Shown here: one piece after another, positions 1 to 21,456 of the stretch
Position numbering within the stretch: the first letter of the stretch is position 1
How the letters are laid out: every line of letters starts with the position of its first letter
Program-made: the position numbers and the translations under genes
Assembly: GCF_946408925.1 (NCBI RefSeq)
Contig: NZ_CAMJUE010000005.1
Span: forward strand, 1-64,000
DNA from: an uncultured Methanobrevibacter sp.
GTDB lineage: Archaea; Methanobacteriota; Methanobacteria; Methanobacteriales; Methanobacteriaceae
Length of the DNA stretch: 64,000 nt
Reading direction: 5' to 3'
The notes under the pieces: generated by a model
What the model saw: the letters and a program-made list of their open reading frames with translations, nothing else
Databases searched by the model: none
What the model was told of the DNA's origin: nothing

Positions 1-8
1 CAATTCAT

Positions 9-32
9 CCACGACCTAAAAAGAGGTCGTGG
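9..32. other. perfect 9-bp hairpin near window edge
   Basis: The sequence CCACGACCT is followed by a 6-base loop and its exact complement AGGTCGTGG. It lies beside the folded region that starts near position 90. On either strand no long T-run follows at once, so it may be a processing or termination structure, or the edge of the same RNA. The strand cannot be decided. Confidence 0.5.
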
Positions 33-89
33 TATTCTTGCACGATTAAGATAAAAATTGCGAATTTTTTTGTAGTTAATTAATTCTGG

Positions 90-440
90 AAATAGCAACC
101 TAACCATAGCCATGTTATTAAGCGAGCCAATTCGCCCAGGCCGACTCCCACGCTGGAGCGTTAGCGGAGGCGTGGAGGGGAGGCCTGGGTGAATAGACTT
201 GGCGAACATAAACTATAGTGAGGAAACGACCATTTCCTGCCGGTTCCGTAAGTCATCAATGAAAAAAGTAGTTTTATTTAAACAGCACCACCATTATATG
301 CAGTCCGAGCTTTAGGTCGAACTGGATGCCTTGAACGATAGCGAAAGGCCTATACTATAGACTTAACAATAGTAAGTTCGTCAAGGTTCGAGGAATAGGA
401 GCTTGTCCCCTATTCCGAGTTTATGGTTTGGTATAGGTGA
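90..440. ncRNA. candidate structured RNA of unknown class
   Basis: No coding frame explains this stretch, which is far richer in G and C than its surroundings. Helices I can draw are all nested. An outer helix pairs 98-108 with 422-432 (one mismatch). A 13-bp helix pairs 130-142 with 182-194 and is extended inward by 149-153 with 170-174. A 10-bp helix pairs 198-207 with 376-385. A 7-bp helix pairs 213-219 with 354-360, and hairpins lie at 221-238 and 392-416. The result is a closed multi-arm junction. I looked for the conserved blocks of archaeal RNase P RNA (GGAAAGUCC-like and ACAGAA) and for the SRP RNA helix 8 motif (GGAAG..AGCA) on both strands and did not find them. The strand is undecided. 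It could be an unrecognised ncRNA or a structured leader. Confidence 0.45.
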
Positions 441-785
441 ATTCGTCAAAAAAATGATTAATGAATGCTGGATGAAAATATTTAATTATTATTAGTTCTA
501 AAAAAAAGTAGTGTAGAGAGAACATAAATGATACAACTTTCGCATGAGTTTTCATATAAACTCTCTCCAATTATAATTAATTATTAATTTCATTTTTTAA
601 GTTATATATAAATAGCTATTTTTAACATGTGAATTTAAGGAATCAATTTTTTGATTTATTTATAGAATAAAAGCAAATACTTATGTTAATTTCTTTGAAT
701 TTAAGTTTCAAGAAAGTAAAATCATTAAAATTAAACATTGTGTTATTATAAGTCATATTTTACATTTTAAAAAAAGTAATGGAAT
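441..785. other. AT-rich spacer, no gene seen
   Basis: This stretch between the folded region and the tRNA gene is strongly AT-rich and has stops in all frames at short intervals. A minus-strand TATA-like run near 475-490 could serve the folded region if that is read on the minus strand. I see nothing else supportable. Confidence 0.5.
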
Positions 786-2177: not shown

Positions 2178-2735
2178 TTATAATTTTCTTCTTCTAGCTT
2201 GTTCTGAGCCTTTTCCTTTAGATTTGATTCCACGTCCTTTGTTACCAGCACTGGTTAAGCCTCTGAGAGCTCTATTAGTGTGTTTTTTGGAACAGATCCA
2301 ATTGATTTTTTTATCGTTAACGATAGAAGGACTGTTAGGATCAACTAAAATTACTTCATAATATTTATGTTTTCCTGTAGACCATACCCAGTAGGAGTTT
2401 AATACTTCCATGTTAGGGTATTTTTTAGCTACACGTTCTTCTGCAATTCTTTGAATTGATTTAGCTTGAGTAATTTTGTTTACACCCATTCTTTTAGGTT
2501 TACGACCATTGAAACGACGGGTTTTCCTTCTTCCACCACGTCTTACTCTGGTTCTAACTAAAACGAAACCTTTTTTAGCTCTGTAACCTAAACTTCTAGC
2601 TCTGTCGAGCCTGGTTGGTCTTTCAATTCTTTGAACTGCACCTTGTTTTGCCCATTTAGGGGCTCTTTGCCACATGAGTTCACGTACGTAGGACTCATCT
2701 GGGTTTTTCCATGCGTCTCTAATATATTTATACAT
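2178..2735 (-). CDS. rpl15e: 50S ribosomal protein L15e
   Basis: This 185-residue basic protein is a clear L15e. It begins [20 protein letters not shown], contains [19 protein letters not shown] and the arginine-rich [19 protein letters not shown], and ends [12 protein letters not shown]. The start used follows AAAGGTGTT; an upstream in-frame ATG would add 12 residues encoded by a GC-rich leader and is unlikely. It is a component of the large ribosomal subunit found in archaea and eukaryotes. It is first in a two-gene unit with the RNA-binding protein downstream. The upstream leader carries a palindrome and a GC-rich structured stretch that may regulate it. Confidence 0.97.
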
Positions 2736-2857
2736 AAATAACACCTTTTTGTTCAGCCACGAGGGCCACATCCATATGGGAACTTATCCCAAAAAAAGTA
2801 ATTATAACTGTTAAATTTTTAACAGTAATCAAATATTTGTTTTATGCATTTATAAAA
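2736..2857 (-). promoter_or_regulatory. promoter and structured leader of rpl15e
   Basis: A TATA-like TTTTATAAAT (minus strand, 2848-2857) places the transcript start about 25 bases downstream. Exactly there lies a 20-bp perfect palindrome, ACTGTTAAA-2-TTTAACAGT (2807-2826). The remaining leader up to the ATG holds a small TGGGA/TCCCA hairpin and a GC-rich GTGGCCCTCGTGGCTG stretch unusual in this AT-rich DNA. Operator or autogenous ribosomal-protein control are both possible; this is inference from position and symmetry. Confidence 0.5.
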
Positions 2858-3017
2858 GTATCGATGAAATTAAAGATACATTAATTTCTCTAAAATCAAA
2901 ATTTTTTACAACACAAAATTTGAATCAAGATTTTATTTTATTGAAATTCACAGAGAAAATTTAAAAAATATTCTCATTTTGTGCATCCTACATTATAAGT
3001 TAGGGCAACTCAATAAT

Positions 3018-3197
3018 TTAGATATAATCTGATTCCAATTTTTCAAGAAATTGTCCAATAGACTCTTCCCATTTTCGTAAATCTTCATCAGAAACACAAA
3101 CCGGTCTTTCAAGATTTACTTTAAATTCTTCAGGATATTTTGGAATCCCTCTACATTTGGACACATAACCAAATCGTTCTTTTATATTATTAGACAT
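3018..3197 (-). CDS. small acidic protein coupled to JAMM-like gene
   Basis: This 59-residue frame starts at an ATG whose first base is the last base of the preceding gene's stop (TAATG), so translation is coupled. The protein starts MSNNIKERFGYVSKCRG, has a CRGIPKYPEEF stretch and ends in a charged amphipathic helix (DEDLRKWEESIGQFLEKLE). It has two cysteines, no signal peptide and no membrane segment. I do not recognise a family. The coupling says it works with the membrane-anchored JAMM-like protein, perhaps as a cytosolic partner, inhibitor or immunity-like protein. Only the coupling is directly seen. Confidence 0.65.
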   Translation of the reverse strand: MSNNIKERFGYVSKCRGIPKYPEEFKVNLERPVCVSDEDLRKWEESIGQFLEKLESDYI

Positions 3198-3928
3198 TAC
3201 TGAATCTCCTTTTTAATTAAAAATAAATCGATTTCATTAATATTTTTATCAATATTATTTAACAGATAATCTCCAATATATAATTCTATCATAGAATTAA
3301 TAATATCTGCATCAACATACATTAATTTAATTTTATCATTAATACTATTCATATCTTTTGCAAGATGATATTGAAACTTTTGTCTAATCTCTTTTTCAAC
3401 ATTGCCTCTAAATCCAACAATCCAAAAAACATTAGGGGAAATAATAATTTCATAGTCTTCAAATTCATTGCTTAGAATATCAAAATTATCAGAAGATGGA
3501 AAAGAATAATAATTTTTCGGATGATTATGCAACGAAGCAATATATCGCTCTTTAAGATGAATTCGATCATATTGCCCACCAGTTTTATCTTCCTCACCTT
3601 TCCAACTGTATATCACTTCTCCAGTTGTATAATCAAAGTACAGCATCCATTCAACTTCCTCATTAACGGTTTTTCTGTAAAATTCATCAACCAATCTGCA
3701 AGCCTCATCGCAAAACTCATCCGGCAAATCTTGAGGATCAATTGACCCAACTGACTTATCAACCCTCAATAATTTATACTCCAACCAATCAGCATCGGGA
3801 AACTCGATACCGTCAAATGACAATACCAAACCTCCACTATCATCAGTAAAAAATCTTTTAAAATCCTCAACTGAAAAAAGAAATACAAAAAATCCAATTA
3901 TTAACAAAGCCAATTTCTTCAAAATCAT
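3197..3928 (-). CDS. membrane-anchored JAMM/MPN-like domain protein
   Basis: The protein is 243 residues. Residues about 3-20 are a single hydrophobic segment (LKKLALLIIGFFVFLFSV), so it is anchored or secreted. Around residues 135-150 is SLHNHPKNYYSFPSSDNFD, which matches the JAMM metal-binding signature H-x-H followed by S-x-x-D (here HNH ... SSDN). Such domains are zinc isopeptidases in MPN+ and RadC-like families, and JAB-type domains also occur in polymorphic toxins. The assisting glutamate cannot be placed with confidence. The C-terminal third is helical and not recognised. Its stop overlaps the start of a 59-residue partner. Possible roles are a membrane-bound peptidase or a toxin-like effector. 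Activity is inferred only. Confidence 0.55.
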   Translation of the reverse strand: MILKKLALLIIGFFVFLFSVEDFKRFFTDDSGGLVLSFDGIEFPDADWLEYKLLRVDKSVGSIDPQDLPDEFCDEACRLVDEFYRKTVNEEVEWMLYFDYTTGEVIYSWKGEEDKTGGQYDRIHLKERYIASLHNHPKNYYSFPSSDNFDILSNEFEDYEIIISPNVFWIVGFRGNVEKEIRQKFQYHLAKDMNSINDKIKLMYVDADIINSMIELYIGDYLLNNIDKNINEIDLFLIKKEIQ

Positions 3929-21093: not shown

Positions 21094-21456
21094 TTTAATA
21101 ATTATTATACAAATATTCAAATGCCAATTATTATTTTTTACAAGGCATATTTGATATTAGTACGAATAATATATTTAGTCGAAATGCAATATAAATCTTA
21201 TCGTTTATCGACAAAAAATTAAATAATTAAAAACGAATAAAATAATAAATTAAAAACTAAAAAATAAGTTTTAACGTTAAAAAAATAATTTAAAATTAAA
21301 AATAATAATTATAAATATATAACACTATTTAATTAATTAAATAATAGATTTTTATTAATGAATAAAATTTCAAAACGAAAACAATATTGTTTCATTATAA
21401 ACATTATTAAATATCATTAAATTCAAAACTATTATTATCAAAACACTCCAAAGGAG
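21094..21456. promoter_or_regulatory. divergent adhesin intergenic region
   Basis: This very AT-rich stretch separates two divergently read adhesin genes and must hold both promoters. TATA-like runs are many (for instance near 21308-21320 for the plus-strand gene and near 21165-21175 for the minus-strand gene), so no single box can be named. A near-repeat of TTATCG/TTATCGAC lies at about 21198-21212. The ideal ribosome site AGGAGGTGA of the plus-strand gene ends at 21460. No other gene is seen. Confidence 0.4.

Follow-up and report, generated by a model that had tools for sequence, protein, structure and literature searches.

The described systems closest in kind to the locus considered here are ROOL (Rumen-Originating, Ornate, Large) and GOLLD, large structured non-coding RNAs of phages and prophages, the function of which is unknown (PMC12286853). 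These RNAs come from bacteria, are frequently found close to tRNA islands, have defined global folds and form nanocages. The element that we describe resembles them in being large, structured and borne by tailed viruses or proviruses; it departs from them in belonging to archaeal viruses, in its place beside a prohead protease gene, and in its make-up as a modular string of hairpins. Membership in either family was rejected, as the ROOL and GOLLD Rfam models matched nothing in the stretch under study at the gathering score and, at E values up to 5-10, neither its copy of the element nor two viral copies (locus L046 and the virus vir323). Structured RNA also serves tailed viruses in head assembly, as the phi29 packaging RNA (pRNA) does; its likeness to our element is that of a structured RNA in a tailed virus, and a packaging role for the latter would be an analogy. 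Among archaeal RNAs, RNase P RNA (RF00373) and SRP RNA (RF01857) are structured and of similar length, and the element matches neither. The literature that was searched contained no paper on such an RNA.

A non-coding, GC-rich region in AT-rich DNA

The window, as we call the whole 64,000-nucleotide stretch of DNA that was analysed, opens contig C5 in the genome of an uncultured Methanobrevibacter sp. Its positions 95-440, over which we place the core of a copy of the viral element, are non-coding and GC-rich amid AT-rich DNA (GC 0.56-0.58 at 101-250, against 0.16-0.24 at 451-750), just as the original prediction had it, and homologues align over about 94-450. Folding of this region beats all shuffles on either strand, with a z of -5.7 on the + strand and of -4.8 on the - strand. 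A coding gene could be ruled out: no reading frame is common to the homologues, in which most gaps relative to the window copy are of 1-3 nt, and no gene runs across the region. We have provisionally entered the core element as + because its domain M1 favours that strand.

One might think of some known RNA in divergent form (RNase P RNA, SRP RNA, tmRNA, a riboswitch or an intron), which the length and GC content would suit. The genome has, however, its only match to RF00373 elsewhere, at G000:C16 (203.8 bits), and its only match to RF01857 at G000:C34 (194.6 bits), which refutes the first two. ARAGORN finds only a tRNA-Lys at 785-858, and a tRNA or tmRNA identity was rejected on that basis. 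Rfam is silent as well, giving no family for the element in window 1-700 at the gathering score or at E up to 5-10, and none at E up to 5-10 for the full L046 copy or the vir323 copy. As the element is, besides, multi-copy and viral, we regard its derivation from a known RNA as barely conceivable. Further along the window, Rfam places an eL15-Euryarchaeota ribosomal-protein leader at 2745-2791 (-), upstream of an eL15-like gene at 2178-2771 (-), an ordinary arrangement.

A structure maintained by compensatory changes

Domain M1 (111-216, +; 75.5 bits with its covariance model R1) is made of a stem 122-133:196-207, with tandem G.A at 124-125/204-205, a stem 134-142:182-190, and an inner hairpin at about 145-180. 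Over the 33 copies and 29 pairs of alignment A5, which was itself fitted to the M1 model, 93.8% of the cells are paired, against 26-45% when the pairs are slid; two-sided changes affect 14 of the 29 pairs, and covariation amounts to 0.223 against 0.098 in shuffles (0/500). An independent MAFFT alignment (A2) gives 94.9% paired cells and two-sided changes at 6 pairs, and both A2 and A4 agree with A5 on covariation; counts on alignment A3 were left out because it has antisense rows. In hairpins and helices P6-P9, 95.7% of the cells are paired, 4 pairs show two-sided changes and there are 29 cells with a double change where shuffles give 9.9 (0/500). All these covariation counts are inflated by the kinship of the copies, though the slid controls lack the same signal. 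Compensatory changes between homologues, expected of a structured RNA, are therefore present in excess of both shuffles and slid controls.

P5 (222-247, +), which in viruses is GGAACCGACC...GGTCGGTTCC, is paired in 92.7% of the cells, with two-sided changes at 3 pairs. P6 (298-327, +) has, in viral copies, now Watson-Crick GA/UC and now tandem G.A, the latter state with GNRA loops, and P7 (328-349, +) has an invariant tandem G.A (CUU-GA-GC-loop-GC-GA-AAG) and 99.4% paired cells, while P9 (392-416, +) reaches 99.6%, with two-sided changes at 2 pairs. The long-range helix P8 (213-360, +) joins the CUAUAG of 213-219 to 354-360. The unpaired stretches of the element are strongly conserved too.

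The original prediction had closed five nested helices into one multi-arm fold, and all five do exist in the letters of the window, with 10/11, 13/13, 10/10, 7/7 and 8/8 standard pairs, in the order 98-108:422-432, 130-142:182-194, 198-207:376-385, 213-219:354-360 and 392-399:409-416. Homologues support them unequally. The second and the fifth hold, being paired in 96.9% and 99.0% of homologue cells with two-sided changes, and the fourth, which is P8, is conserved (79.4%) but without covariation; the outermost helix is poorly conserved (60.8%), as is the third (71.1%), the homologues pairing 196-207 with 122-133 instead. This mixed support, together with the alternative pairing, makes the overall five-helix fold only partly right. 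The broader claim of an undescribed structured element fares better, supported as it is by the lack of an Rfam family, the spread of the element and its strong covariation; that it acts as RNA, and from the + strand, is the tentative part.

The viral setting

A plain DNA search found homologues in 33 of 139 family genomes, with up to 7 matches per genome, the weakest of which are short and may be due to chance. Roughly one related genome in five (Methanobrevibacter and neighbours) has the element, and several copies in one genome are common. Model R1 retrieves M1 in 30 of the 151 genomes of the order and in 3 of its 19 genera, weak and worn copies included. Named records with homologues are mostly Methanobrevibacter metagenome-assembled genomes from goat, roe deer and other animals. 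At locus L121, two strongly diverged copies of M1 (G057:C19:20256-20352 and 21127-21224) lie about 870 nt apart in a genome where a search for the portal gene came out empty, possibly a separate subfamily.

Of 39 contexts, 32 have the element 155-349 nt past a prohead protease gene (c1), itself behind a portal gene (c2), both on the strand opposite to the + strand of the element. The c2 product shares 94% identity with the protein annotated as portal in Caudoviricetes sp. vir323, a complete deposited virus (circular, 34,179 bp), in which the next gene is annotated as prohead protease and the element falls inside an unannotated gap, 2477-3616. This recurrent order of portal, protease and element, vir323 included, makes the element viral, a provenance that lay beyond the sight of the original prediction, as did the solitary and partly decayed state of the window copy. 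A pattern search of viral contigs added one true record, of the same virus, the other five being chance matches according to model R1. The family portal is present in 42 of 139 genomes.

On its other flank the element meets genes that vary and may point either way. In loci L032-L069 the stretch that runs from the element to the c0 genes holds cargo, the gene content of which differs among related proviruses; it includes HEAT-repeat-like proteins and, at L056, a gene that we take to resemble a DUF262/GmrSD-type restriction protein. The region may be a hotspot for defence genes or for cargo of other kinds. Integron-like cassette sites were considered and rejected, since copies of the element do not flank the cargo. 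A leader of the neighbouring host gene was likewise rejected: at the solitary copies L064 and L065 the next gene apparently has a TATA-like box of its own between it and the element, as judged by eye.

Modularity is a marked trait of the element. Proviruses without the full version often keep a shorter set, namely two alternative hairpins with P10, P12 and P13, and the provirus of the window genome itself (at C6) carries such a set; the L183 provirus has intact portal and protease genes and no element at all. Because modules come and go in this way, and a provirus may do without them, the element is not strictly essential. At L036, L038, L040, L049 and L063, tandem partial second copies start at about 214-232 (window numbering), with P5-P9 duplicated without M1. 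What we have, then, is a modular, non-coding, structure-conserving element that head-tailed viruses and proviruses carry in Methanobrevibacter and its close relatives, with the prohead-protease gene on one side of it and a variable cargo region on the other.

A solitary copy in the window

The window copy lies outside any recognisable provirus. Its neighbours are the tRNA-Lys and ordinary genes, portal and protease being absent; it lacks the virus-side 3' modules, and some of its pairs are lost, with standard pairs left at 8/12 in the basal stem (tandem G.A positions counted), 7/10 in P5 and 6/8 in P6. These three features make a solitary relic, or a captured copy, the best reading of it. In the place of viral modules P10-P13 stands a separate dispersed host repeat (476-623; 5 matches in its own genome, 9 in G048). 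This intergenic repeat of some 150 nt, found between unrelated genes, contains a GAGAG/CTCTC hairpin and has a TATA-like end. At the other side, 1-56 is the end of another dispersed element (8 copies in its own genome, 19 in G045) and the left border of the shared block. That element has a hairpin CCACGACCT..AGGTCGTGG, and the TnpB-like open reading frame beside one copy makes it probably IS200/IS605-like.

The window copy might also be seen as a functional host RNA with exactly the five-helix fold first proposed and no tie to the viral family. Such a fold can indeed be drawn from the letters of the window, and 51-512 recurs nearly identical in another species (G048), amid different surroundings. 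Against this, homologues conserve two of the five helices poorly, and P2, P5 and P6 are mismatched in the window copy and paired in viral copies, which leaves such a host RNA very improbable.

Strand and mode of action

The element is most likely a modular structured viral non-coding RNA, a putative transcript. In the virus, a folded RNA would be made from the + strand, opposite to the head genes, as a chain of hairpins, M1 and P5-P9 together with alternatives that can take one another's place. The chain would be built on one recurring design, a stem, a tandem sheared G.A, two pairs and a small or GNRA loop; we conjecture that it most likely offers a viral or host protein repeated sites to bind, in the style of the ornate phage RNAs. 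We favour such an RNA over one rigid fold because of the repeated design, the conserved unpaired stretches and the shuffling of modules. Internal motifs speak for the + strand: GA/GA is found in tandem at the base of M1 in 30 of 33 copies and at P7 in all 23, and in P6 GA faces UC in 15 copies and GA in 7, with loops that read GUAA, GAAA and GUGA on +. Wobble cells in M1 lean the same way (46 G.U against 11 A.C), most of the G.U coming from one conserved pair. Other signs count against a + RNA. In helices predicted on both strands, G.U and A.C are even in the core (24 against 25), and downstream the late strand is favoured (12 against 39), which leaves the + strand without any advantage overall. 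A separate + transcript needs a promoter, yet a scan for TATA upstream of the + 5' border in 28 copies showed no positional enrichment, upon which a + strand promoter was rejected. A convergent layout, with a + RNA from M1 to P9/P10 and, on the opposite strand, a late messenger that has P12 and P13 at its 3' end, would reconcile these mixed signs. The whole of this, a folded + strand RNA with repeated hairpins of which the window holds a relic or captured copy, we put forward tentatively, as plausible but somewhat short of probable.

The same facts can be read from the other strand. Lying so close past the protease stop, and with its - strand co-directional with the late genes, the structure might be a segment of the head-gene messenger, rich in hairpins and either intercistronic or 3' untranslated, with a putative role in ending, processing or protecting the transcript after the protease and before the variable cargo. 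The lack of a conserved promoter for a + transcript would fit, and so would P12 and P13, two hairpins abutting the protease stop, which in many variants show A.C on + (that is, G.U on -) and which have U-rich loops when read on -. On that strand, however, GA/GA turns into UC/UC, the GNRA loops are no longer GNRA and the conserved wobble G134.U190 becomes C.A, while the unpaired stretches are conserved beyond the needs of a terminator; we hold a late-strand role of the whole structure to be unlikely, if worth serious attention. The element may also work as DNA: folded as a single strand or a cruciform, it would be a site at which the virus recombines (exchanging cargo), is packaged or replicates. 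Strand neutrality of the core wobbles, the border with a cargo region that varies between proviruses, and modules that duplicate and swap all agree with this; the cargo has no copies on both sides, the internal-loop motifs are RNA-like and no adjacent recombinase was identified, so that a DNA site seems to us improbable.

Significance

More boldly, the element may stand for a class of ornate RNAs in the tailed viruses of archaea, modular and non-coding, made of repeated tandem-G.A hairpins, that would be expressed late in infection and would bind a virion or host protein, or form RNA particles, like GOLLD and ROOL; we rate this extension by analogy as less likely than not, though worth serious attention. 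Few structured RNAs from archaeal viruses are known. The present element is widespread in viruses of gut methanogens, covaries strongly, is absent from Rfam and occupies a blank in the annotation of a deposited virus. Were it transcribed, archaeal viruses would have their own equivalent of the ornate and unexplained RNAs known from bacterial phages, one whose natural module deletions make its function testable.
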